Shown one piece after another: positions 6,135-42,609 of a stretch of DNA of 64,000 nt. Location: the IMG/VR virus record IMGVR_UViG_3300025648_000012, positions 62,001 through 126,000 of that record; one strand, given 5' to 3'. The stretch comes from a virus. A program made the translations under genes and the position numbers. The notes under the pieces were generated by a model. It did not search any database and was not told where the DNA came from. It saw only the letters and a list, made by a program, of their open reading frames with translations. Positions within the stretch are counted from its first letter, which is position 1. Every line of letters starts with the position of its first letter.

Positions 6135-6178
6135 CTGTATCAAACCTGTATCAAACCTGTATCAAACCTGTATCAAAC
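6135..6178 (+). repeat. Four tandem 11-bp repeats (CTGTATCAAAC)
   Basis: CTGTATCAAAC occurs four times head to tail without interruption (6135-6145, 6146-6156, 6157-6167, 6168-6178). The 11-bp period is close to one DNA helical turn, so a protein could bind all copies on one face. The array sits about 55 bases upstream of the histone-like gene start and could be an operator or an origin-type iteron set. Confidence 0.9.
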
Positions 6179-13426: not shown

Positions 13427-13503
13427 GTGCCCGTAGCTCAACTGGATAGAGCACCAGCCTTCTAAGCTGGGGGTCGCTGGTTCGAGTCCAGCCGGGCACG
13501 CCA
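13427..13503 (+). tRNA. tRNA-Arg (anticodon UCU)
   Basis: Complete cloverleaf. Acceptor GTGCCCG (13427-13433) pairs with CGGGCAC (13493-13499). The D-arm is GCTC/GAGC. The anticodon stem CCAGC/GCTGG encloses CTTCTAA with anticodon TCT. The T-arm GCTGG/CCAGC encloses TTCGAGT. Discriminator G and an encoded CCA end at 13503. It reads AGA, which is used heavily for arginine in this AT-rich window, so it likely supports phage translation. Confidence 0.96.
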
Positions 13504-20863: not shown

Positions 20864-21358
20864 ATGGAAACTAATCAAAGTAAAAAGATCCTTTTATCCG
20901 AATCTACTTTTTTAGATATTGTAAAAGGATTGGCAAAAAAGATTCGGGAATCTGAAGAGTATTCTGTTTCTACGCTTAAATACATTGTTGCACCAAGCCG
21001 AGGAGGGTTAATTCCTGCGGTTCATCTGTCTCATTTGCTCAATCTCCCTTTAATTGTTTTAGAAAAACACGAGTTAACCTCCCTTAAATCTAAGGTAGAA
21101 TTTAGGTACAGTTTAGACAATGATGAAGCGGAGCAGTTTGAAAACATTAAAATTATTCTAGTAGAAGATATTTCTGATACAGGTAAAACCTTTCAGACCA
21201 TGCTTAGCGGGCTGAACTCTACAAAAAACGTAATAACAGCTAGCCTTGTTTGTAGAGGCACTACCTCATTTTCCCCTGACTTTTTCGGTAATTACTACAT
21301 AGGTAACTCTTGGGTAGTATTTCCTTGGGAGCACAAACCCATAATCAATAAAAAATGA
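20864..21358 (+). CDS. Phosphoribosyltransferase
   Basis: 164-residue type I phosphoribosyltransferase. The PRPP-binding loop is seen as IILVEDISDTGKTFQTM (about residues 103-120). An upstream IVAPSRGGLIPAVHLSHLL supplies the flexible catalytic region typical of purine/xanthine-type enzymes. Likely role: salvage of a purine base, or glycosidic exchange using PRPP. A link to 7-deazaguanine metabolism encoded 11 kb downstream is conceivable but not shown. Overlaps the next gene by four bases. Confidence 0.85.
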   Translation: METNQSKKILLSESTFLDIVKGLAKKIRESEEYSVSTLKYIVAPSRGGLIPAVHLSHLLNLPLIVLEKHELTSLKSKVEFRYSLDNDEAEQFENIKIILVEDISDTGKTFQTMLSGLNSTKNVITASLVCRGTTSFSPDFFGNYYIGNSWVVFPWEHKPIINKK

Positions 21359-29350: not shown

Positions 29351-29360
29351 GAGATAAAAA

Positions 29361-29820
29361 TGAAATTTGAAGTAAAAGAAAACGAAGGATTTGCAGCTTT
29401 GCTGGTCAGCGAATTACCGTATTTTGTGCAGTCTACATTTATACAGGCGACCTTGTAGGTATAAGTGAAACCTGTATTAAACTAGAAAATCCAAAGATTG
29501 TTTACGAAACTGGGGCCTTTAACGAAAAAGAATGGAAAGATGCTCAATCCCTACCTAATGAGCTATATATTCAAACTGGGATGATTGAATCTTTTGAAGT
29601 GAGCATTCCCATTAAAAATATTCGCAGGTTTTGGTTATATCCAAAGTTGCTGTCAGGAATACACTCTATGTCATGGTCGTACACTGGGAAAAATTCGTAT
29701 AGTGAGTCCGGTTCTGGAAATAGATCCCGTTGTAGGTGTAGGTCAGGAAACTGGAGTTGGGCGTGGTCAGAGTCAGGATCAAAATCAAGGGCAAATTCCA
29801 AGACTAGGTCTACCTCATAG
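29361..29820 (+). pseudogene. Frame-disrupted gene of a phage family with Ser/Gly-rich tail
   Basis: ATG 29361 has a good TAGGAGATAAAA site, but its frame stops after 32 residues at 29457-29459. The +1 frame is open from 29371 to 29820 with no start codon near its beginning. It encodes QRITVFCAVYIYTGDLVG, then IVYETGAFNEKEWKDAQSLP and IESFEVSIP, ending in a Ser/Gly/Arg/Trp tail (SESGSGNRSRCRCRSG). This pattern resembles a widespread phage family ending in glycine/serine repeats. A +1 shift between 29371 and about 29401 would restore one protein of about 153 residues. Either an indel mutation, a sequencing error or recoding explains it. Confidence 0.5.
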
Positions 29821-29891
29821 CACAAAAGAGAGAAAAGTTCTGAATAAATCTTAGGAAGCTATTAGGAAACTAAAACAGGAGATTAGACTAA

Positions 29892-31809: not shown

Positions 31810-32373
31810 ATGTCAAACCGCGTAATAAAAGAACCAAAGTTTACTATTACAAAAGATATACACCTATCTTATGGTCATAGGGTATGGACTCAGGAATTAG
31901 ACCCAGAGTTTGCTTTAGATAACTCGTGCGTATGTAAGCATTTGCATGGACATTCTGGAACTATAACGGTTGGACTTAGTTCAGAAAAAGTAACAGATGG
32001 CTTTGTAACTGACTTTAAGCACTTAAACTGGTTAAAGCAGGCTGTGGATACTCACCTTGACCACAAGTTTATTATTGATAAAAACGACCCACTATATATG
32101 TATTTAGTAGGCTGTGCTGGCTATGAAAAGCAACCCTGTATGTTAAACGAAAAAGAATTTTTTGGAGGCGCATATTCCTTAGTCTCTCCTTTTGCCTTAA
32201 ACAATTCACTTACAGAATTCGTTGAGAGCTTTACCGTTGTGAACTTTGTTCCTACATCTGAAAATTTAGCTAAATGGATTTTTGAAATAGTGGAAAAGAA
32301 AATGGAAAGATTAGCTACAGTAGATTTTGTTACATGGAAAGAAACAGAAAAAACTTCTGCAACTTATAGTTAA
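31810..32373 (+). CDS. queD: 6-carboxy-tetrahydropterin synthase (QueD/PTPS family)
   Basis: 187-residue T-fold enzyme of the 7-deazaguanine pathway, converting dihydroneopterin triphosphate to 6-carboxy-5,6,7,8-tetrahydropterin. Zinc ligands are visible as His23 (YGHR) and His46/His48 (HLHGHSG), with catalytic cysteine candidates Cys40/Cys42. GFVTDFKHL and the TSENLAKWIFEIV helix are typical. The C-terminal TVDFVTWKETEKTSATYS matches the family end, including the ETxxxxAxY pattern. First gene of the deazaguanine cluster. Confidence 0.93.
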   Translation: MSNRVIKEPKFTITKDIHLSYGHRVWTQELDPEFALDNSCVCKHLHGHSGTITVGLSSEKVTDGFVTDFKHLNWLKQAVDTHLDHKFIIDKNDPLYMYLVGCAGYEKQPCMLNEKEFFGGAYSLVSPFALNNSLTEFVESFTVVNFVPTSENLAKWIFEIVEKKMERLATVDFVTWKETEKTSATYS

Positions 32374-32390
32374 ATATATTATAGATTAAA

Positions 32391-32771
32391 ATGAAAAAAA
32401 TCTGGATTACATTTAGTAAGCATGGATTACATAAATACCCAAATGCTCCGGTTGAGGTTGGATATTTAGCTAATGAGCATAGACACCTATTCAAGTTCAA
32501 AGTAACAATTGAAGTTTCTCACTTAGATAGAGAATTAGAATTTCACATGGTACAAAACTATTGTGAAGGCATGTACAGTTGTGGGGTTTTAGAACTGAGT
32601 AATAAATCCTGCGAAATGCTAGCAGTCGAGCTTTTAGACAAGCTTCACAAAAAGTATACGTATTTTCCTAATTCAGAGGATTTTAGATATCTCGAGGTTG
32701 AAGTTTCGGAAGATGGAGAATGCGGGGCCATTTGCGATGTAACTGATTTACTTAGGAAAACTTTAGAATGA
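32391..32771 (+). CDS. QueD-like T-fold paralogue, probably degenerate
   Basis: 126-residue protein directly after queD. NEHRHLFKFKVTIEVSHLDRELEF, then SCEMLAVELLDKL, then YLEVEVSEDGECGAI follows the strand-helix-strand order of a pterin-synthase T-fold. The HGH zinc motif is reduced to HRH, and an EDGE motif closes the protein. It may form a hetero-oligomer with QueD or bind a pathway intermediate. No ribosome binding site is obvious. Confidence 0.5.
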   Translation: MKKIWITFSKHGLHKYPNAPVEVGYLANEHRHLFKFKVTIEVSHLDRELEFHMVQNYCEGMYSCGVLELSNKSCEMLAVELLDKLHKKYTYFPNSEDFRYLEVEVSEDGECGAICDVTDLLRKTLE

Positions 32772-33802
32772 ACATTCTTGTAACCGGTGGGTTTGGGTAC
32801 ATTGGATCTAACACTGTTGTAAAATTAATCCAATCAGGTCATAAGGTAGTTATTCTAGATAACTTAGTTAATAGTTTTTTAACTACAATCTCAAAAATTG
32901 AATCTATAACTAAAAAAGGGGTGCCTTTCTTTCTTGAGGATTGCGGTAATACTTCCGTTGTCATATCCATTCTAAAAGAATATTCTATTGATACCGTAAT
33001 CCATTTTGCTGGTCTAAAATCAGTAACAGAGTCTGTGCTTAAACCCATTGAATACTATAATAACAATGTTGCCGGTACCCTATCGGTGCTTTTAGCCATG
33101 AAAAATACTGGTGTAACTAGGTTAGTATTTAGCTCTTCAGCTGCGGTTTACGGAATTACAGAAGAATCACCAATAACAGAGTTGCATAGTTGCAACCCAG
33201 TAAATTCATACGGTCAATCTAAATACTTAGTTGAAAAAATTCTTAAGGATGTTTGTACAAGCTCTCCCATGTGGAAAGTATTGTGTTTACGGTATTTTAA
33301 TCCCATTGGATCTGATACTACAGCTAGTTTGGGAGATAATCCAAAAAGCCAAACTAAAAATTTAATTCCATTGCTATGTAGAGTAGCTCAAGGTGAAATT
33401 CCCCATGTAGACGTATACGGAGATAACTTTAATACTCGGGATGGTACTGGAGTTAGAGACTATATTCATGTTGAGGATGTAGCTCAAGGCCACTTGGCTG
33501 CTCTTACTGCCCTTAATAACGTTGCTGGGTTTGATGTAGTTAATTTAGGAACTAGTAAAGGCTACACAGTATTAGAAGTAATAAAAACCATGGAAAAAGT
33601 TTCTAAAAAGTCAATACCATTTCAAATTTGCTCAGCTAGGCGAGGGGAGATAGATTGTTATTATGCGGATGTTACAAAAGCAAATAACCTTTTGGGGTGG
33701 AAAGCAACGCATGATTTAGAATCAATGTGTAGCTCAGCTTGGCATTTTGCAAACAATAAGGGATTAACTCATGCAAACAATAGTTCACTCCAGTATTCCT
33801 AA
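32768..33802 (+). CDS. galE: UDP-glucose 4-epimerase (GalE-like)
   Basis: 344-residue extended short-chain dehydrogenase. NAD-binding GGFGYIG is at residues 7-13, with SSSAAVYG and SYGQSKYLVEK supplying the catalytic serine, tyrosine and lysine. The family signature LRYFNPIGSDTTASLG is followed by VYGDNFNTRDGTGVRDYIHVEDVAQGHLAAL, diagnostic of GalE. Interconverts UDP-glucose and UDP-galactose (or N-acetyl forms). Embedded between QueD and DpdA genes with overlapping starts, it probably supplies a sugar nucleotide to the glycosyltransferase at 36440. Confidence 0.93.
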   Translation: MNILVTGGFGYIGSNTVVKLIQSGHKVVILDNLVNSFLTTISKIESITKKGVPFFLEDCGNTSVVISILKEYSIDTVIHFAGLKSVTESVLKPIEYYNNNVAGTLSVLLAMKNTGVTRLVFSSSAAVYGITEESPITELHSCNPVNSYGQSKYLVEKILKDVCTSSPMWKVLCLRYFNPIGSDTTASLGDNPKSQTKNLIPLLCRVAQGEIPHVDVYGDNFNTRDGTGVRDYIHVEDVAQGHLAALTALNNVAGFDVVNLGTSKGYTVLEVIKTMEKVSKKSIPFQICSARRGEIDCYYADVTKANNLLGWKATHDLESMCSSAWHFANNKGLTHANNSSLQYS

Positions 33803-34640
33803 ATATGCAGTAATTGGTACTAATAGCGCTGGAAAATCTACAGCTACGTATTTAGCCTGTGGTATTCTAAAACAACAAGGAATAAACGTTGATGGAATTT
33901 TTCAACAGGATAGGCGCAGACCATTTCCTACAGAGTTAATGGGAAAGTACTTAGAAGCTCATTATTGGCAGTTAGCTAATTTAATTTCTGTTGAGTCTTA
34001 CTTTTCTCTAATACAGTCTGGTACAGACGTTATTTTATCCGATCGTTCAGTATTTGACTTATTTGAGTACGCTAAATTTCAATGGCCTCAATCTATTGGG
34101 GCTCTCGAGCAATTTATTTTGACCTATACTGCTACTTATACCAAGTTATTTTATTTGAAACCTATAGAGTATGTTGATGATGGTCAAAGACCTCCCAAAG
34201 ATTTTGTTAATGCTGTTGACGTTTTAATTGAAAAAGACTTACCGGTTAATACAATAAGAATCCCTTTACAAAGAAATTCTGGAGTAAACCCTGGTGAGTT
34301 CATAGCTCAAAGAATAGCTTACGATTTGAAGTTAGCTAAATTAGGTTTAAACTCTATAAATTCTCGCCTTATTGGCAGTAGAGGGTGTATGACTCACCGC
34401 ATAGATTCTGATTGGGATATTGTAACTACAGTAGGTGAAATTGAAAAGAATCCTTTGCTAAACTCTATTGAAAAAAGAAAAGATAGTGGAAAAAATTCTA
34501 ATTCAAGAGGTCTGCTTGGAAAAGCTCCAACTCCCTGTTATATAGTAAAGAGTTCAACTTTTGACATTATAGTTCATGAGACCATTGAAGAAGTTATACT
34601 GTACGACTCAATAACTCCTTATACGGAAATTTTTCTATGA
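33771..34640 (+). CDS. P-loop kinase fused to a minimal nucleotidyltransferase-like domain
   Basis: 289-residue two-domain protein. Residues 1-185 form a nucleoside-kinase/AAA_28-like domain: GTNSAGKST at 16-24, QQDRRRPFP, and LSDRSVFDLFEYAKF (DRS lid-type motif). Residues about 195-289 carry a nucleotidyltransferase signature: G202-Ser...SDWDI (GSRGCMTHRIDSDWDI) and a later FDIIV that could give the third aspartate. The fusion lies inside the deazaguanine cluster, overlapping galE by 32 bases and dpdA by 4. It may activate a nucleotide or sugar for base decoration; substrate unknown. Confidence 0.65.
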   Translation: MQTIVHSSIPKYAVIGTNSAGKSTATYLACGILKQQGINVDGIFQQDRRRPFPTELMGKYLEAHYWQLANLISVESYFSLIQSGTDVILSDRSVFDLFEYAKFQWPQSIGALEQFILTYTATYTKLFYLKPIEYVDDGQRPPKDFVNAVDVLIEKDLPVNTIRIPLQRNSGVNPGEFIAQRIAYDLKLAKLGLNSINSRLIGSRGCMTHRIDSDWDIVTTVGEIEKNPLLNSIEKRKDSGKNSNSRGLLGKAPTPCYIVKSSTFDIIVHETIEEVILYDSITPYTEIFL

Positions 34641-35974
34641 AACTTTCTAGGGATACAACTTTAGATAAAAAACTTCCTACTATTGGATATCATTATGCTC
34701 CAGCTGGGGCAGATAAGATATCCACCACAAACTTAAAATGTACTCCATATAATGAATATGCTCCAAAAATTAAAAAAATTAAAAAGGGGAGTACCATTAT
34801 AACTGTTTGTTATGGGTTTAATAAGAAACTAACATTAAGTAGAGTTTTGCCCCTCAAAGATGCACAAATTACAGGAATAACCATACTCAAAAAAGCAAAG
34901 GTTAGCCTGTATAATGCCACCATGTTAACGGTAAACGAAACAACCCATACTCGACTAAATAACATAAGAAAGGCAAGTTACACTATTCAAGATAGCGGTG
35001 GGTTTCAGCTGTGGTCTGGAGTTGAGGACTTTTTAGACCCAAAATTGATAAAGAATAAACACACTCTTTGGGCAGATTCCGGCGTAGGATTAGACTTACC
35101 CCTTAGTGGCTGTTCAGATGAAAAGGTATTTTTAGCCGGAGCTAAAATGCTAGCGGCAAACAACCAAGTAATGAAAAGCAATAAGTACAACTTGATGAAC
35201 GTTTCTCACGGAGGAACCTTAAAGGGTCGAGAAAAATGGCTAAACATTGTGCTTGAGGACCCTCAAACTTCAATGTGCATTGCTGGTCTACGGGCTACAG
35301 CGATGCAACAAAATATCTCGGGAGTAGGGGACAGAATATCTCCAGTAGCATTTATTTCTCACGTTCTTTTTACAATTCTTAAAACTCAAAAATACTATCA
35401 GCATTATCACGTATTAGGTGTAGCTACAGGATGGCAAATGTTTCTACTTTCATTGGTAGCCCATAACTTAGGTAAAACTATAACCTCAGATTCCGCTACA
35501 GCTCAACTTTCTGCTAAATCTGGATTCTTTTTAGAAAGCGACTCCCTAAAACCCCTTGGAAGAATACCGAAATCTGTAAGACAATCATATTGCAACTGTG
35601 AAGCTTGTAACTTAGTTGGTAACAAATACTGGTTTTATGTTGTAGACCAGCTTACTATGCTCCATAACTTGTATAGTTTAATAGATTGCGCTGAAACTGC
35701 TAACCGCTATGCTGAATATGCTATAAAAAATAATGTTTCTTTTTCTGACATAACTACTGTGGTTTTAGGATCTACCTCATCAACCAAGCACACTGATAAG
35801 GCTATTTTTGAGGCGGTTAAATTAGTAAAAACTACAGATTATAAAAAGTTAAAGGAAGTTTCAGTTTTTACTACTCCTACAACTCTGTTTACTCAAAAAG
35901 ACGAGCTAATTCAGACGCGTAAAGTCCTTAAAAAATATGGAGAATATTATGGAACCTCCTTTTTTACTCCGTAG
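34637..35974 (+). CDS. dpdA: DpdA-like DNA guanine transglycosylase (TGT superfamily)
   Basis: 445-residue TIM-barrel transglycosylase. TIQDSGGFQLW (Asp119-Ser-Gly-Gly-Phe-Gln) is the tRNA-guanine transglycosylase base-binding motif with its catalytic aspartate. A second acidic region, WADSGVGLDLPLSG, matches the family's FDxP area. NVSHGGT and IAGLRA fit further barrel strands, and a CNCEAC cluster (about 322-327) suggests zinc. Co-location with folE/queD/queE indicates DpdA, which exchanges guanine for a 7-deazaguanine base in DNA, rather than tRNA-acting Tgt. Overlaps its neighbours. Confidence 0.85.
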   Translation: MKLSRDTTLDKKLPTIGYHYAPAGADKISTTNLKCTPYNEYAPKIKKIKKGSTIITVCYGFNKKLTLSRVLPLKDAQITGITILKKAKVSLYNATMLTVNETTHTRLNNIRKASYTIQDSGGFQLWSGVEDFLDPKLIKNKHTLWADSGVGLDLPLSGCSDEKVFLAGAKMLAANNQVMKSNKYNLMNVSHGGTLKGREKWLNIVLEDPQTSMCIAGLRATAMQQNISGVGDRISPVAFISHVLFTILKTQKYYQHYHVLGVATGWQMFLLSLVAHNLGKTITSDSATAQLSAKSGFFLESDSLKPLGRIPKSVRQSYCNCEACNLVGNKYWFYVVDQLTMLHNLYSLIDCAETANRYAEYAIKNNVSFSDITTVVLGSTSSTKHTDKAIFEAVKLVKTTDYKKLKEVSVFTTPTTLFTQKDELIQTRKVLKKYGEYYGTSFFTP

Positions 35975-36443
35975 TCAAGAACCACATTTATTTACTGGAA
36001 TAGAAGTCGAGCATTCCCCGTATTTTGGAGAAAAAACTCTTTTTGTAGTTGGAACCGTTGAAAAAGAAAAAATAGAAAAAGCTCTAAAAATAGAAAACTG
36101 TACGCATTTATATTTGGGAGCTAATCAACACTTTTCAGATTACGTAATTGAGTTAGCAAAAGAATTTAGTAACTTAATTCACGTAACTGTTGATATTCCT
36201 TATTTGCTATATATAGATGAAGTGTTTAGTAATGAGCTACTTCACCCAAGTCTTAAAAAAGTACACTTTATGCTCAGTGCCCCACTTGTAGTTTCACACA
36301 GATTACTTTCCATTAAAGTTGATGATTCTGTAAATAATAGGCGTAATCCAGGAGTGTGGGTGTTTCCTATTACGTCAAATACTAAAAATTTTACACCTTG
36401 GTCAGCTTATAAAAATGATGTACTTTTAGGAGAAAAGTTTTGA
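35949..36443 (+). CDS. Conserved-looking protein of the deazaguanine cluster
   Basis: 164-residue alpha/beta protein. Notable segments are GIEVEHSPYFGEKTLFVVG, CTHLYLGANQHFSDYVI and HVTVDIPYLLYIDEVF. It starts inside the 3' end of dpdA; ATG 35949 is chosen because TGGAG lies six bases upstream, rather than ATG 35937. It also overlaps the glycosyltransferase start. Tight coupling on both sides suggests a dedicated partner of DpdA or of base decoration. Family not recognised. Confidence 0.6.
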   Translation: MEPPFLLRSQEPHLFTGIEVEHSPYFGEKTLFVVGTVEKEKIEKALKIENCTHLYLGANQHFSDYVIELAKEFSNLIHVTVDIPYLLYIDEVFSNELLHPSLKKVHFMLSAPLVVSHRLLSIKVDDSVNNRRNPGVWVFPITSNTKNFTPWSAYKNDVLLGEKF

Positions 36444-37618
36444 AAGTATTTTATATGGGGTTAGAATCAATAGTCTCAAGATACACCTACCAATTAACTA
36501 ATTGGAATACTCGAGTATTTGAGGAGCTTGGAGTTAATTACGAGATAGTTACTGGGGAAGAAATTCCAGAGGCTAAAGGACATATTTTAGTAGGTTCAGT
36601 TTTGGATGCGCATAACCGAGGATACTACTCTTTAACGCAAACAGCTAATTTGGTAAAACTACACCAACAAGGTAATATAACCAGTACAGATGTAATTTTT
36701 TATGAGGATATGTTTACTCCAGGAATAGAAATTCTTCCTTATATTTTTGCTCAAGTTCCTATGAATAAACGACCTAAAGTTTTTGTTAGGTGTTTAGCGC
36801 AAACTATTGACCCAGACGATTTTACTAACCGGGAAGGTATGTTTGGTTTCATGAGAAGGTACGAACAGTTAGTAGATTCTTTCGTTACTGGCATTCTATG
36901 CGCTTCGGAAGAGATGGTGGCTAACTTAAAAATTGCTGGATTTAAGTCTGACTTGTATGTAACTGGTTTACCCTTTGGTAAAGCTGAAGTTCAAGAGAGA
37001 GTTACACCTACTCCTTTTGAAAACCGTCCGAAAACTGTAGTATTTGCTGCTCGGTGGGATAGTGAAAAACAACCTAAATTTTTTATAGAGGTTGCAAAAT
37101 TAGTAAAGAAAAAACTTGGAAATTCAGTAAAATTTGTAGTCTTGAGTGGAAGAAAAGGAATAAACTCAAATGATTTAGACTTGAAGACTGCTGCTATTGA
37201 GGCTATTCAAGACTCAACTATTGAGTGGAAAGATGGGCTTTCCAAAAATGAATACTACACGTGGCTAAATAACAGTAGAGTTCTTTTTAATTGTGCATTG
37301 CAAGATTGGGTTAGTAATACGGTAAGTGAAGCCGATGCTTTAGGCTGCAATACTGTTTTTCCTGCGTATAGATCTTTTCCAGAGGTTTTCAAAAGTAGCC
37401 GAGAACATTTGTATATACCGTTTAATGTGGAAGACGCAGCACTCCTCATTGAAAAAAATATAGAACAACCACAATCTGATTTAGGAGAAGTTTCTAGTAA
37501 TCAGAATCTTTCCATATATAAAACAGTCAAAATTTTTCAGGGAGTAGGTAAAGAGTACCTACGGTCAAATTTAGACTATAGAGGAAAGTTGTACGGAGCA
37601 ATTTCAAAAGGAGATTAA
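36440..37618 (+). CDS. GT4-type glycosyltransferase
   Basis: 392-residue GT-B glycosyltransferase. The C-terminal Rossmann domain shows VVFAARWDSEKQPKFFIEVAKLV (about 195-217), WKDGLSKNEYYTWL, and the donor-binding NTVSEADALGCNTVFPAYRSFPEVF, where the EAxAxG/E-type sequence is typical of GT4. TTG 36440 has AGGAG seven bases upstream and overlaps the previous stop (TTGA). It sits between DpdA and QueE, so it may glycosylate phage DNA, possibly the 7-deazaguanine base. A capsid or host surface target is possible but less consistent with context. Confidence 0.82.
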   Translation: MKVFYMGLESIVSRYTYQLTNWNTRVFEELGVNYEIVTGEEIPEAKGHILVGSVLDAHNRGYYSLTQTANLVKLHQQGNITSTDVIFYEDMFTPGIEILPYIFAQVPMNKRPKVFVRCLAQTIDPDDFTNREGMFGFMRRYEQLVDSFVTGILCASEEMVANLKIAGFKSDLYVTGLPFGKAEVQERVTPTPFENRPKTVVFAARWDSEKQPKFFIEVAKLVKKKLGNSVKFVVLSGRKGINSNDLDLKTAAIEAIQDSTIEWKDGLSKNEYYTWLNNSRVLFNCALQDWVSNTVSEADALGCNTVFPAYRSFPEVFKSSREHLYIPFNVEDAALLIEKNIEQPQSDLGEVSSNQNLSIYKTVKIFQGVGKEYLRSNLDYRGKLYGAISKGD

Positions 37619-37619
37619 A

Positions 37620-37811
37620 ATGTTAGTACGGTTTAGTTTAGCAAATGGAGGAGATTTTGCAGTTACTCCCTCCAATGTTGTAGCAGTGTATTGGGGCAAA
37701 AAAGAAAACTCTGTTGACTGTATTCCAACTACAATCGTTCTTGGGACTGGTGAGGAATTCAATACAGAAGAAAGCTTTGACGAAGTATTAGAAAAACTTG
37801 GTTCCATTTAG
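37620..37811 (+). CDS. Small hypothetical protein
   Basis: 63-residue beta-rich protein starting one base after the glycosyltransferase stop, behind GGAGATTAAA. The sequence SNVVAVYWGK, then TIVLGTGEEFNTEESFDEVLEKL has a weak FlbD-like pattern (strand, turn, then regulatory helix). Function unknown. Confidence 0.5.
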   Translation: MLVRFSLANGGDFAVTPSNVVAVYWGKKENSVDCIPTTIVLGTGEEFNTEESFDEVLEKLGSI

Positions 37812-37820
37812 GCTTATTCC

Positions 37821-38621
37821 ATGTTTAATTATACTGAACTTTTTTATTCATTGCAGGGCGAAGGGGAAAGAGCTGGCGTACCCTCTGTTTTCCTCCGTTT
37901 GTTTGGCTGCAATTTGAGATGTCCTGGCTTCTACGGTAAACAAAAGGTAGACTCTATTGACCCTTCCCAATACTCCAAGTTTGAAGATTTGCCCCTCATG
38001 GACGGTGGATGTGACACCTACGCTTCTATTTACCCCCAATTTTCTAAATTTGCTCAAAAGATTACAGTAGAAGAACTTGTTAAAAAGCTGTCTAGTTTTG
38101 ATTGCCGAGACCTGGTTATTACCGGTGGAGAGCCACTGTTACCGGGGAATCAACGTAGGTTAGTAGAGCTACTTACTAACTTTGAGTTTAGCAGCTTACC
38201 TTTTGATGTAATTACGTTTGAAACGAATGGTACGCAAGAACTAATTCCTGAGATGGTAAAAGCAGTGGAGGACACAGGATTTACATACTTATTTTCTGTT
38301 TCTCCAAAATTGTCTAATTCAGGTGAAACAGAAGAAGCAAGAAAAGTAAGACTACAGTTAGATTTTAAGCAGGAACCGGAATGTTCAAATACTCAATACC
38401 TTAAGTTTGTTATAGCAACAAGAAAGGATGCGGAGGAAGCATTGCAGCTAGCCATGGAACTAGGAGCTACTCCTTTGAGTATTTATTTTATGCCGATGGG
38501 TGGAATTGTATCCACCTATGAATTACACAAAACTGCTGTAGCTAACTTGGCTTTGGAGTATGGAGTTAGGTACTCTGATAGATTGCAAGTTCCACTATTT
38601 AAGAACGATTGGGGCACCTAA
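37821..38621 (+). CDS. queE: 7-carboxy-7-deazaguanine synthase (QueE, radical SAM)
   Basis: 266-residue radical SAM enzyme making CDG from 6-carboxytetrahydropterin. The start YTELFYSLQGEGERAGVPSVFLRLFGCNLRC matches QueE. Iron-sulfur cysteines are Cys30 and Cys34, with the third, normally three residues on, displaced to Cys64 (GGCDTYASIYP) by a 29-residue spacer. VITGGEPLLP supplies the SAM-binding GGEP, and TFETNGTQ and FSVSPKLSNSG follow the family order. The displaced cysteine appears to define a phage-type QueE variant. Confidence 0.93.
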   Translation: MFNYTELFYSLQGEGERAGVPSVFLRLFGCNLRCPGFYGKQKVDSIDPSQYSKFEDLPLMDGGCDTYASIYPQFSKFAQKITVEELVKKLSSFDCRDLVITGGEPLLPGNQRRLVELLTNFEFSSLPFDVITFETNGTQELIPEMVKAVEDTGFTYLFSVSPKLSNSGETEEARKVRLQLDFKQEPECSNTQYLKFVIATRKDAEEALQLAMELGATPLSIYFMPMGGIVSTYELHKTAVANLALEYGVRYSDRLQVPLFKNDWGT

Positions 38622-38622
38622 T

Positions 38623-38856
38623 ATGAAAACACAAAAATTTAGTCACAGAGAATTAGTAAAGTCCAAGTTAGAGCAATTAGGTCGAGTTGATACCGCTTTA
38701 GCCAAATCTTTAGGAATTTCAAGGCTACCTGTTCAGATTGAAAGGTTAAGAAAACAAGGTATGAAAATTAACTTGATCCGTGAGTATACAGGGTCAATGT
38801 ACTATATGTTAGAAAACTATACGCTCAAAAAAGGTGCTCAAAATGACTTACAGTGA
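38623..38856 (+). CDS. Small helix-turn-helix protein
   Basis: 77-residue protein. GRVDTALAKSLGISRLPVQIERLRKQGMKI is a helix-turn-helix followed by a wing strand, like the HTH_55-type domain common in phages. ATG 38623 is just after the queE stop, with GGGG upstream; the frame is open further upstream inside queE. It may regulate the surrounding operon. Confidence 0.65.
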   Translation: MKTQKFSHRELVKSKLEQLGRVDTALAKSLGISRLPVQIERLRKQGMKINLIREYTGSMYYMLENYTLKKGAQNDLQ

Positions 38857-39064
38857 AAATAACAAGTACATAGATGTTCTGAATTCCTACATTAAGGAAG
38901 ACACTGCATTAGTTAATTACTATAATAAAACTTTGAAGTTGCCTTCTGGAGAAATAGGAAATAGATTACTTTTAGTGGAAACTAGACTACTTAATTTGTC
39001 AAAACTTGTTTGTGAGCTTATTACAGAGCTAGGAACAAATAAACAGTTACCAAAATACTACTGA
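38843..39064 (+). CDS. Small hypothetical protein
   Basis: 73-residue helical protein overlapping the previous gene by 14 bases. ATG 38843 has AAAAAGGTG upstream. A GTG at 38834 is an alternative start. The sequence is leucine-rich in the second half (LLLVETRLLNLSKLVCELITELG). No family recognised. Confidence 0.5.
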   Translation: MTYSENNKYIDVLNSYIKEDTALVNYYNKTLKLPSGEIGNRLLLVETRLLNLSKLVCELITELGTNKQLPKYY

Positions 39065-39073
39065 GGAATAAAA

Positions 39074-39748
39074 GTGGCTAATACTGACGAAGCATTAGGA
39101 GCGGAAATAGGAACAATTTTAAGAAACAAGGGAATAGAAACTCCCATGTTTGGATCGAACTACCTGGACAACTTTTCAAAAATAGAAACACTGGCTCCAT
39201 TAGTTGAGTCCATTCTAACAATTCTTGGAATGGACTTGAAAGATGATTCTCTTAGGGATACGCCAAAACGTGTTTCTAAGATGTTTATTGAAGAATTGTT
39301 CTATGGGCTTGACTACAGCAACTTTCCGGCATGTACAGCCGTGGATAATAAGATGCACTATGACGAAATGCTACTTGAGGGAGGTATAACGGTAAACTCT
39401 CAGTGTGAGCACCACCTTGTACCGTTCAAAGGACATGCGTACGTTGCATATTTACCAGCCAATAAAGTATTGGGGTTATCCAAGTTTAACCGAATAGTAG
39501 ATTTCTTTAGCAGAAGGCCACAAGTTCAGGAGAGGCTAACAGTACAGATTGGTACCTCCATACAGCATATTGTAGAAACGCCAAATGTTGCGGTTGTACT
39601 AGAATGTTCTCATTTTTGTGTTCAATGCCGTGGAGTAAAAGATTCTGATAGTTGGACTGCAACGTCAATGCTCGGGGGTATTTTTAAGGAACAAGCGGTT
39701 AGAGTTGAGTTGTTTTCTCTAATAAACGGTAGACGAGGGAGGCATTAG
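39074..39748 (+). CDS. folE: GTP cyclohydrolase I (FolE)
   Basis: 224-residue enzyme converting GTP to dihydroneopterin triphosphate, first step of the 7-deazaguanine (and folate) pathway. Diagnostic segments are DTPKRVSKMFIEELFYGLD, VNSQCEHHLVPFKGHAYVAYLP (zinc Cys and His), LGLSKFNRIVDFFSRRPQVQERLTVQI and LECSHFCVQCRGVKDSDSWTATS (second zinc Cys). It starts at GTG 39074 behind TGAGGAATAAAA. With queD and queE it gives a complete route from GTP to CDG. Confidence 0.96.
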   Translation: MANTDEALGAEIGTILRNKGIETPMFGSNYLDNFSKIETLAPLVESILTILGMDLKDDSLRDTPKRVSKMFIEELFYGLDYSNFPACTAVDNKMHYDEMLLEGGITVNSQCEHHLVPFKGHAYVAYLPANKVLGLSKFNRIVDFFSRRPQVQERLTVQIGTSIQHIVETPNVAVVLECSHFCVQCRGVKDSDSWTATSMLGGIFKEQAVRVELFSLINGRRGRH

Positions 39749-41091: not shown

Positions 41092-42609
41092 ATGTCAATA
41101 GATTTAGAAGACACAAAAACTGGTGGATTTTCGGACTCACCAAAAATTCCAAGTATTGAAAAAGTATTACCGGTAGTTAAATGGAAAGCTGGAAAATATA
41201 CCAAAATTCGTTTAATTGGTAAAGTTACTCCAACTGCCAAGTTTTGGGTTAAAGTTAAAAAGAAGGATGGGGGCATAACTAAATTTCCTGCCCCTTGCAT
41301 TTCTTACGACCCATTAACTCAGGAACACGATGAGACAATAAAAGATCCTTGGTGGGAATATTATAAGCAGGAACGAGCTGCAATTAAAGACGGCTCGTTG
41401 GACAAAGAGGATGCTTTAGTACAGTACTCAACTGATTGTTATTGTAACGTAATAGTTAGAAGTAAGCAGCAAAAGGGTGGGGATTTTGAAACTCGCACTA
41501 AAGCAGAAGCAAGGACAGGATTCAAAGATCCGGAATCTGAGTCTGATACTCCTGTAGAAGTTGCACGTTTTACTTCCTCTGTTTTACGTAAAATAAAGGA
41601 GAAGAAAGAGCTAAATGAGGTAGAAACAAAAGAAGGTGTTACGTGTTACCCCTGCAATGACCCTCGTTATGGTTTTGATATTCTTGTTAAGTATAATGAG
41701 AATTCTGCGTCACCAAGCGAAACCTATTCGGTAGAGAAGGGTGAAGGTAGAACAAAACTTACTGAGGAAGAGAAGCTGTATCTTGTGTATGACATTGACA
41801 GTGTTGCAAAACTTCCTGAAAATGTTACAGAAGAATCAGTTATTAGTGATTTTAATTCATGGAGAGAAAGAATGGGAATTAAGAAACCTAGCAAAACAAC
41901 TGTTTCAAAGAAAGGCAAAGGGCGTACAGAAGAAGACGAAGATGAGGATGACTTGGAAGAGGAAGAGGAGGATGAAGCGCCTAAATCCAAGGCAAAGAAA
42001 CCCGTCAAGAAGTCTAAGAAAGTTGAGGACGATGATGACGAGGATTTTGATGACGAAGATGAAGAGGACGAAGCTCCCAAATCTAAATCAAAAAAGGCAG
42101 TGAAAAAGTCTAAAGTCGAAGATGAAGACGATGATGAAGACGATGATGAAGATGATGACTTCGGCGACGATAACGAAGACGAGGAAGAGTCCCCTAAATC
42201 TAAAAAGTCAGTTAAAAAGCCTGTCAAGAAGTCTAAGAAAGTAGAAGATGACGAAGACGAGGATTTTGATGACGACAGTGATGAGGATGAGGATGAAGAC
42301 GACGAACCCAAGTCAAAGAAACCTGTCAAAAAGTCAAAGAAGGTAGAAGATGAGGACGATGATGATGACGACTTTGGTGACGATGACGATGACGATGAAG
42401 ATGAAGATGAAGCTCCCAAGTCTAAGTCAAAGAAACCTGTAAAGAAATCAAAGAAAGTAGAAGATGACGACTTTGATGATGACAGTGACGACGATGACGG
42501 TGACGACGAGGATGATTCCCCCAAGTCAAAAAAATCTGTCAAAAAGCCAGCTAAGAAGCCTGTCAAGAAGTCAAAGAAGGTAGAAGATGATGACGATGAT
42601 GATTTTTGA
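41092..42609 (+). CDS. Probable single-stranded DNA-binding protein with repetitive acidic tail
   Basis: 505-residue protein. The N-terminal 280 residues look like a gp32-type ssDNA-binding domain: VKWKAGKYTKIRLIG, KFWVKVKKKDGG, FPAPCISYDP, with a CYCN/CYPC cysteine pair that could hold zinc. The rest is six imperfect repeats of a Lys-rich PKSKxxKPVKKSKKVE unit followed by Asp/Glu runs, ending VEDDDDDDF. The acidic terminal phenylalanine resembles the partner-binding tips of E. coli SSB and T7 gp2.5. AAGGAGAAATAAGA precedes the ATG, and recA follows. Confidence 0.7.
   Translation: MSIDLEDTKTGGFSDSPKIPSIEKVLPVVKWKAGKYTKIRLIGKVTPTAKFWVKVKKKDGGITKFPAPCISYDPLTQEHDETIKDPWWEYYKQERAAIKDGSLDKEDALVQYSTDCYCNVIVRSKQQKGGDFETRTKAEARTGFKDPESESDTPVEVARFTSSVLRKIKEKKELNEVETKEGVTCYPCNDPRYGFDILVKYNENSASPSETYSVEKGEGRTKLTEEEKLYLVYDIDSVAKLPENVTEESVISDFNSWRERMGIKKPSKTTVSKKGKGRTEEDEDEDDLEEEEEDEAPKSKAKKPVKKSKKVEDDDDEDFDDEDEEDEAPKSKSKKAVKKSKVEDEDDDEDDDEDDDFGDDNEDEEESPKSKKSVKKPVKKSKKVEDDEDEDFDDDSDEDEDEDDEPKSKKPVKKSKKVEDEDDDDDDFGDDDDDDEDEDEAPKSKSKKPVKKSKKVEDDDFDDDSDDDDGDDEDDSPKSKKSVKKPAKKPVKKSKKVEDDDDDDF
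41980..42606 (+). repeat. Six-unit Lys-block/acidic-block coding repeat
   Basis: Six in-frame copies of a PKSK(S/A)KKPVKKSKKVED module, each followed by a run of Asp and Glu containing a DF dipeptide, fill the end of the SSB-like gene. Units vary from about 29 to 39 residues. The DNA is biased to GAT/GAC/GAG/GAA and AAG/AAA, and an antisense serine-rich open frame results from it. Confidence 0.9.

Follow-up and report, generated by a model that had tools for sequence, protein, structure and literature searches.

Why would a virus keep a glycosyltransferase (GT) and a UDP-glucose 4-epimerase among genes for making and inserting 7-deazaguanines? To our knowledge, the glycosylated bases of phage DNA are pyrimidines, and our searches of an open-licence library turned up no description of a 7-deazaguanine that is glycosylated in phage DNA. 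The 7-deazaguanines described in the available parts of our sources bear small groups only. We analyzed a 64,000-nucleotide stretch, referred to as the window, of a 142,721-base virus record that may be a fragment. Our analysis suggests that the cluster is probably a phage DNA-hypermodification operon, in which a 7-deazaguanine would replace some guanines and a sugar would then be added. From a module joining a DpdA-like enzyme to a glycosyltransferase, one would expect bulky purines with sugars attached; these should have consequences for restriction, CRISPR, sequencing and phage engineering.

Gene content of the cluster

The first-pass annotation of this DNA had described a unidirectional run of overlapping genes from queD to folE. 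The ORFs lie where it placed them, all on the plus strand, in the order queD, T-fold-like gene, galE, P-loop kinase, TGT/DpdA-like gene, a conserved gene, GT4 gene, queE and folE (Table 1). Overlaps join the T-fold-like gene to galE (4 bases), galE to the kinase (32), the kinase to the TGT-like gene (4), the TGT-like gene to the conserved gene (38) and the conserved gene to the GT (4). Three small ORFs that the annotation had omitted sit between the GT and folE.

Table 1. Features of the cluster and one gene outside it, in window coordinates
Feature	Position	Strand	Evidence
queD, 6-carboxytetrahydropterin synthase	31810..32373	+	PF01242 85.3 bits; phrog_2389 2.4e-32
T-fold-like protein	32391..32771	+	phrog_17812 1.6e-29
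galE, UDP-glucose 4-epimerase	32768..33802	+	TIGR01179 389.7 bits, cut-off 262.3
P-loop kinase-like ORF, NTase-like motif in C-terminal half	33771..34640	+	AAA_28 under cut-off; phrog_2107 2.8e-6
TGT/DpdA-like transglycosylase	34637..35974	+	tied to TGT via relatives; DSGGFQ, CxCxxC
conserved protein, function unknown	35937..36443	+	relatives in 52/81 GT loci
GT4-type retaining glycosyltransferase, TTG start	36440..37618	+	PF00534 34.9 bits, cut-off 26.4
small ORF, 63 aa	37620..37811	+	ORF call
queE, 7-carboxy-7-deazaguanine synthase	37821..38621	+	phrog_2076 1.2e-40
small HTH-like ORF, cluster membership uncertain	38560..38856	+	HTH_39 below cut-off
small ORF, 76 aa	38834..39064	+	ORF call
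folE, GTP cyclohydrolase I, GTG start	39074..39748	+	NF006824 270.9 bits, cut-off 202
purine-type phosphoribosyltransferase, outside cluster	20864..21358	+	PF00156 43.5 bits

Family searches found the CDG/preQ0 precursor genes folE, queD and queE all present in the window. The window QueD and QueE scored under the NCBIfam cut-offs, yet their best-matching models were QueD and QueE. Residues C42, H46, D84 and H85 of QueD were invariant in 10 aligned sequences, the window QueD included, and C30, C34 and C64 of QueE were kept in 68, 68 and 64 of 70 aligned sequences. As members of these families, FolE, QueD and QueE would convert GTP to CDG.

Linkage of the glycosyltransferase, TGT-like, T-fold and queE genes

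The first-pass annotation had looked to co-occurrence of this GT with dpdA in phages for support, and held that GT homologues lying always outside deazaguanine clusters would speak against it. At the loci we examined, GT relatives are nearly always inside such clusters, near a TGT/DpdA-like gene. Relatives considered were the best 80 of 82 for the GT, of 304 for the TGT set TGTa and of at least 572 for the T-fold protein; the GT and TGTa lists consist of close relatives, and contigs recur between sets. Loci with enough flank by the cut-offs of each set are called full-context, and others are counted only where stated. All 39 full-context GT loci contain TGT and queE genes, while T-fold, galE and folE genes occur at 38, 35 and 32 of them, folE being missing from 7. 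After merging of these loci at 85% GT identity, TGT and queE were each found in 16 of 16 groups. Across all 81 GT loci, a TGT-like gene was present at 77, the remaining 4 being truncated by contig ends near the GT, and T-fold relatives were present at 76 (phmmer).

Searches from the other genes gave a similar picture. From the TGTa side, a GT was found at 41 of 42 loci (best 80 of 304 relatives). The 30 full loci found from the T-fold side comprised 25 with GT and TGT, 2 with GT only, 3 with neither and none with TGT but no GT; for all 80 T-fold loci, truncated ones included, these counts were 54, 8, 17 and 1. An unrelated GT (PhiXhv), intended as a negative control, had no relatives in viral contigs and hence yielded no loci. 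These data show that the GT, TGT-like, T-fold and queE genes are linked.

The module also occurs in cultured phages. BUCT-ZZ01, X1, ACP17 and PA5oct each carry TGT, T-fold, glycosyltransferase and queE genes, and 15 of 19 cultured-phage GT records (an overlap counted by hand from listings) had a T-fold match, versus 0.01 expected. The ACP17 GT used as query returned one locus, ACP17 itself (100% identity), and the PA5oct GT returned none. Because its carriers include the PA5oct group (Pseudomonas aeruginosa) and the cyanophage BUCT-ZZ01, the module is directly testable.

Could these genes be metabolic neighbors by chance in a single phage lineage? The kinase and the three small ORFs (63 aa, HTH-like and 76 aa), which had no phmmer relative in the 81 GT loci, are what such an explanation would predict. 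It is contradicted by the recurrence of the same partners in divergent viruses, in several shuffled gene orders among the GT loci, and in at least four cultured phage lineages, and we regard it as extremely unlikely.

The kinase/NTase fusion had been counted as a cluster member in the earlier interpretation. Its kinase half reached 23.4 bits against the AAA_28 cut-off of 27 and matched the thymidylate kinase family phrog_2107; its NTase half had no Pfam match and was assigned from a motif read by eye. No match was found in 50,697 phage records; viral contigs gave 6 candidate stretches, none of them a relative. Therefore, we rejected the fusion as part of the module, whereas the placement of the GT in a deazaguanine cluster stands.

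A T-fold gene accompanies the loss of QueC

No match to the QueC family (PF06508) was found across the virus record, itself possibly a fragment, and we therefore do not class the locus as a preQ0 system. A QueC profile matched none of 80 T-fold loci (best 80 of at least 572 relatives). Among 18 phages picked by hand, non-randomly, from earlier matches, several of them related, QueC scored above the cut-off in 8 of 8 without a T-fold gene versus 1 of 10 with one. The T-fold gene, which the first-pass annotation had listed without assigning it a role, is among the most constant partners in these loci and accompanies QueC loss.

The T-fold protein scored 17.2 bits against PTPS (E 0.005), below the cut-off of 22.4, and its family, phrog_17812, is annotated as of unknown function. 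Residues H14, H30, H32, C74 and E75 were invariant in 26 sequences; in the alignment, read by eye, no Cys of the QueD-type CxxxHGH motif stands four residues ahead of HRH. Direct comparison of the QueD and T-fold family profiles gave a weak C-terminal match only (14%). None of the 33 full TGTa loci had a queD nearby. That the T-fold protein is the QueD of TGTa clusters is disfavored, since PA5oct and Phosso, both of which carry TGTa relatives, have a separate PTPS gene elsewhere, and X1 does too. All 10 T-fold phages compared had a PTPS place distinct from the T-fold gene, above cut-off in 9. The T-fold gene was present without any GT or TGTa/TGTb profile match in 5 of 10 phage records, and Campylobacter phage CP220 had no T-fold gene.

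From this co-occurrence, we infer that the T-fold protein takes the place of QueC and tailors CDG, at which the route seems to exit the preQ0 pathway. DpdL is reportedly a CDG decarboxylase. The module also offers testable roles for phrog_17812 and a number of hypothetical proteins.

The TGT-like transglycosylase and its proposed substrate

The window TGT-like ORF is divergent and had no Pfam, PHROG or NCBIfam match in direct scans, and a single-sequence search of viral contigs yielded no confirmed relative. It matched a protein of phage Peetri (tblastn 2e-15) that itself exceeds the PF01702 cut-off of 26.3, with 28.6 bits summed over frame stretches. Comparison of the window TGT group with two other TGT groups by hhalign gave 97.7 and 98.1%, and the translation contains the motifs listed in Table 1. 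These indirect ties place the protein in the TGT superfamily. As a member, it may swap guanine in DNA for the tailored base after replication.

By profile similarity, the TGTb subgroup of relatives groups with DpdA2 of Vibrio phage nt-1 (8.8e-70), and the window TGT is no more than distantly related (hhalign of its group, 98.1%). The nt-1 system, which extends to the schizotequatroviruses phi-ST2 and 6E351A, has FolE, QueD, QueE and a TGT-like enzyme in common with our module, and phrog_10773 is common to TGTb and phi-ST2. phi-ST2 has QueC and QueF genes, and nt-1 has QueC and ArcS according to the accessible part of its description (PMC6884629), whereas the module here shows no QueC. Unlike nt-1 and phi-ST2, which are absent from the GT and T-fold match listings, it includes the T-fold gene and a GT, joined by GalE where the GT is a close one.

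Phage 9g, whose DpdA/Gat-QueC system places archaeosine in DNA, likewise has the CDG pathway and a transglycosylase, but also a QueC-type gene and no T-fold or GT match. Neither the TGTb profile nor PF01702 hit its genome. Individual proteins of 9g and CP220, compared without prior assignment of the DpdA among them, gave no match to the TGT groups. In Achromobacter phage Motura, a TGT related to that of the window (3e-14) lies beside queE and folE, but with queC and an asparagine-synthetase-like gene and no T-fold or GT match.

Could the TGT act on tRNA instead, with the GT adding a sugar to a queuosine-like base in the manner of animal QTMAN? QTMAN is a GT4 member. Like the proposed phage enzyme, QTMAN and QTGAL are glycosyltransferases acting on a 7-deazaguanine in nucleic acid, but they are animal enzymes with an RNA substrate. 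Mannosyl- and galactosyl-queuosine occur in animal tRNA, as stated in the available portion of PMC12518689, and this, with the TGT family itself, favors a tRNA target. However, TGTb falls in the DpdA2 family of nt-1, whose DNA contains dPreQ0, dADG and dG+, and 9g DpdA failed to complement a tgt mutant (PMC6884629, in the part available). Vibrio phage 6E351A, which we take to be the TGTb-matched record 6E35.1a, has 15% of its dG modified, with a mass that fits dPreQ1 (PMC12028318, excerpt). No QueC was found in our virus record, which also argues against tRNA modification, and we consider that explanation very unlikely.

The glycosyltransferase and GalE

A structure model of the GT (pLDDT 77, pTM 0.77) matched BshA in Foldseek at 6.6e-11, and R205, K210 and E297, which we take to be donor-site residues of GT4 enzymes, were kept in 81, 81 and 79 of 82 aligned sequences. 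The window GT is thus predicted to be a GT4 enzyme of GT-B fold with conserved donor-site residues. Its structural neighbors include the tetrahydrobiopterin glucosyltransferases 5ze7 and 9v0w (Z 21.8 each; rmsd 3.6 and 3.4 over 310 and 314 residues), and the best row had Z 22.9. Their presence among the best matches would fit a GT that makes a pterin glycoside from a FolE/QueD-branch intermediate, as in cyanobacteria. However, the scores of many further GT4 enzymes differ from those of these two by no more than 1, and such a glycoside would need neither QueE nor TGT, the most constant neighbors, so that we judge this most improbable.

Of 62 GT ORFs at T-fold loci (best 80 of at least 572 relatives), 24 showed 20-29% identity to the GT of the window, and for another 20 blastp gave no match to it. 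galE was present at 35 of 39 full-context GT loci versus 8 of 30 full T-fold loci. At the latter, hand counts from listings placed it at 4 of 5 loci whose GT shared 40% identity or more with that of the window and at 4 of 22 with a more distant GT. GalE is constant only alongside close relatives of the window GT. In the probable scheme, the GT4 enzyme would finally add a hexose to the modified base, most likely galactose provided by way of GalE.

The acceptors of the T4 alpha- and beta-GTs are 5-hydroxymethylcytosines. As in the proposed system, a base of T4 DNA is glycosylated after replication (PMC13216743, in the part available). No thymidylate-synthase family gene was found in the virus record, itself perhaps only a fragment, making a hydroxymethyl-pyrimidine acceptor less likely.

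The same absence bears on whether the cluster makes a plain 7-deazaguanine (for example, dCDG or the T-fold product) while the GT works elsewhere: on a different base in the DNA, a protein of the virion or a sugar on the host surface. Several targets are known for phage glycosyltransferases (PMC12619734, available part). In Xanthomonas phage PhiXhv-15, some 93 kb separate the TGT from a weak GT relative that adjoins sugar genes. Against this, the record gives no sign of hydroxymethyl-pyrimidines, and at most loci by far, in several gene orders, the GT occurs together with TGT, T-fold and queE genes. We consider a separate GT target unlikely, though deserving some weight.

If the GT does modify the deazaguanine, where is the sugar attached? 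CDG is without a hydroxyl, so the attachment point must come from the T-fold product or from an acyl or C-C link. One doubtful version, to which we give little credence, is that the T-fold protein replaces QueC as the CDG tailor and the GT joins the sugar directly at C7. The product would be a C-glycoside, formed with or after carboxyl loss, or a glycosyl ester of the carboxyl. If this were true, DNA would contain a sugar-bearing purine, and different phage GTs might add different sugars. For the hypermodification operon as a whole, the likely benefit would be protection from restriction and other DNA-targeting defenses, as known for 7-deazaguanines.

Other proteins of the window

The model of the conserved protein between the TGT-like gene and the GT was weak (pLDDT 68), with no PDB fold match at E <= 0.001. 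Sequence searches of the PDB with profiles A1 to A5 produced no usable result. The phosphoribosyltransferase outside the cluster is xanthine PRTase-like, below cut-off, and matched the profile of a PRTase common in many related loci at 1.9e-21. This Gpt-like enzyme may salvage the guanine released by the transglycosylase.

Organization of the cluster and its genome

The window comprises bases 62001-126000 of an IMG/VR virus record of 142,721 bases, identified as a tailed-phage genome by its genes for topoisomerase II, DNA polymerase, terminase and portal. The first-pass annotation had described a 7-deazaguanine DNA-modification cluster read from one strand, with short overlaps between its genes, and our analysis bears this out. 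Three more small ORFs lie within it.

Features of the window
Feature	Position	Observation
Cluster	31810-39748 (+)	queD, T-fold-like gene, galE, P-loop kinase-like ORF, TGT-like ORF, conserved unknown gene, GT4 glycosyltransferase, queE, folE, in this order
T-fold gene	32391-32771	phrog_17812
TGT-like ORF	34637-35974	TGT/DpdA-like transglycosylase
Unknown gene	35937-36443	
Glycosyltransferase (GT)	36440-37618	GT4 type
Stretch 5' of cluster	29351-29891	541 bases with no clear gene; both strands have low-complexity ORFs
Acidic-tail ORF	41092-42609	long Asp/Glu/Lys repeat tail; between cluster and a RecA-like ORF (named by eye); by eye, possibly a single-strand DNA-binding protein
Tandem repeats	41928-42515	within acidic-tail ORF
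Tandem repeat	6135-6178	11-base unit, four exact copies
tRNA-Arg (TCT)	13427-13503	lone gene

The enzymes retain residues whose roles we take from their families. QueD C42, H46, D84 and H85 are invariant across 10 aligned sequences, and the QueE cysteines C30, C34 and C64 are kept in 68/70, 68/70 and 64/70. GalE passes its equivalog model, with Y148 and K152 in 73/73 aligned sequences, and GT residues R205, K210 and E297 are kept in 81/82, 81/82 and 79/82.

The glycosyltransferase is linked to the deazaguanine module

We collected the best 80 of 82 viral-contig relatives of the GT (48-66% identity) and added phage BUCT-ZZ01, giving 81 loci. Searched with phmmer, these loci held no match to the window's own TGT, kinase or three small ORFs. 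Clustering of neighbour genes showed that the window TGT is replaced by either of two divergent TGT-like families, TGTa (53 loci) or TGTb (24 loci). At the other four, the contig ends close to the GT. When the analysis was confined to full-context loci (at least 8 kb before and at least 9.2 kb after the GT start), all 39 had a TGT, confirming the co-occurrence with a TGT/DpdA-like gene that the first-pass annotation had proposed as a check. The four commonest gene orders occurred in 21, 15, 15 and 7 loci; because order varies, the linkage is not merely one stretch inherited whole.

Genes found at GT and TGTa loci (number of loci or groups)
Gene	81 GT loci, phmmer with window proteins	39 full-context GT loci	16 groups of the 39, merged at 85% GT identity	42 full TGTa loci
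TGT		39	16	
queE	69	39	16	33
T-fold	76	38	15	42
galE	72	35	13	34
unknown gene	52	33		42
folE	60	32	11	22
purine-type phosphoribosyltransferase		31		
queD	23	6		
GT				41

The TGTa loci, the best 80 of 304 relatives, share some contigs with the GT set; those counted as full extend at least 11 kb downstream. The gene directly 5' of TGTa (L174:7532-8272; neighbour cluster c8, 49/53 TGTa loci) matches a Phosso gene annotated as a sliding clamp (1.7e-63), so TGTa often adjoins a replication gene.

Approached from the T-fold gene (best 80 of at least 572 profile relatives, TGT called by profile or DSGG-type motif), the 30 loci complete for 7 kb on both sides comprised 25 with GT and TGT, 2 with GT only, 3 with neither and none with TGT but no GT (Fisher p = 0.002, related loci counted singly). 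The corresponding counts for all 80, cut loci included, were 54, 8, 17 and 1. Of the 62 GT ORFs in these loci, 20 had no blastp match to the window GT and 42 did, with identity of 20-29% in 24 of the latter, indicating that diverse GT4-like enzymes accompany the module.

In bacterial and archaeal genome contigs, GT patterns occurred in 54 stretches, and a relative was confirmed on five MAG contigs, four of which also carried T-fold and TGTa matches (one TGTa match partial). These five contigs (L188-L192), binned as Phycisphaerae, Syntrophomonadaceae, Rickettsiales, Rhodobacteraceae and Chloroflexi, may be phage contigs put in bacterial bins. Judged from sequence, the linkage of GT with the deazaguanine module is strong and general.

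Cultured phages

Among 50,697 phage records, 19 matched the GT and 27 the T-fold gene; 15 matched both, versus 0.01 expected, and fall into four lineages by our own count. ACP17, X1 and BUCT-ZZ01 (TGTb) and PA5oct (TGTa) carry TGT-like genes with the DSGG motif, T-fold, GT and queE. Sinorhizobium phage Phosso groups T-fold, GT (profile match only), folE and queE, with its TGTa relative ~170 kb away. Four records matched the GT but not the T-fold gene, namely Ep032 and three PhiXhv phages; the PhiXhv-15 GT lies outside any deazaguanine cluster.

Ten T-fold phages were examined; those matched by a TGTa or TGTb profile were exactly the five with a GT. In RHph_I1_18, Ahp1, Bakedbeans, D479 and phiST (L173, L175-L178), folE accompanies the T-fold gene and the record also contains queE; the GT and TGTa/TGTb profiles matched none of these phages. 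A nucleotide-level route or another transglycosylase is possible in such phages. A kinase-like gene lies near in D479 and phiST (deoxynucleotide monophosphate kinase; AAA_18).

Identity of the TGT-like ORF

No family model matched the window TGT-like ORF. At E 0.01, tblastn linked it to 18 phage records, of which four carry a TGT annotation. Summing its stretches brings one of the 18 records, Peetri, over the PF01702 cut-off (28.6 vs 26.3 bits); across 16 records searched with PF01702, only three gave any match at E 0.1. The Motura relative is located in a queC-queE-folE cluster. Profile comparison related the window TGT group to both TGTa (97.7%, 1.6e-12) and TGTb (98.1%, 8.6e-14).

The TGTb profile matched phage nt-1 (8.8e-70), and phrog_10773 is common to TGTb and phi-ST2. 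Published studies report dPreQ0, dADG and dG+ in nt-1 DNA (PMC6884629) and, for phage 6E351A, modification of 15% of dG with a mass that fits dPreQ1 (PMC12028318).

QueC and the T-fold protein

A search of the window's 142,721-base record, which may be incomplete, found no QueC. In a hand-picked sample of 18 deazaguanine phages, QueC exceeded the cut-off in 8/8 without the T-fold gene vs 1/10 with it (Fisher p 0.0004), phi-ST2 and Moby being scored T-fold-negative by their absence among the T-fold matches listed in the phage-record search. The single positive, D479, is a partial match, and X1 fell under the cut-off. We built a QueC profile from three phage proteins; its one match in the first locus set was an ORF of L051 lying outside the cluster, and the TGTa set and the 80 T-fold loci gave no match.

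Because all 10 T-fold phages have a separate PTPS place, 9 over cut-off, the T-fold protein cannot simply be equated with their QueD. In none of 33 full loci was a queD found near TGTa. By eye, the His pattern of the T-fold protein resembles the PTPS metal site, without the Cys before HxH. We infer that this protein acts on CDG, the product of FolE, QueD and QueE; it could be DpdL, a CDG decarboxylase.

Predicted product and sugar

On balance, we favor the reading that the cluster makes a glycosylated 7-deazaguanine DNA base, a product deduced from its gene content. Search listings of the open-licence literature gave no report of such a base in phage DNA, and Hutinet 2019 (PMC6884629) has no word starting "glycosyl".

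The predicted GT structure (pLDDT 77, pTM 0.77) is modelled as a GT4 fold. Its top Foldseek match is BshA (6.6e-11). VIA-align gave 7qsg at Z 22.9 (rmsd 3.8, 325 aligned), closely followed by many other entries, two tetrahydrobiopterin glucosyltransferases at Z 21.8 among them. Structural matches to this model leave the acceptor unfixed.

A GT is present in 27 of the full T-fold loci. Among these, galE occurs in 4 of the 5 whose GT shares 40% or more identity with that of the window and in 4 of the other 22. Small as these numbers are, this concentration suggests that GalE serves the window's GT clade and that the sugar is probably galactose.
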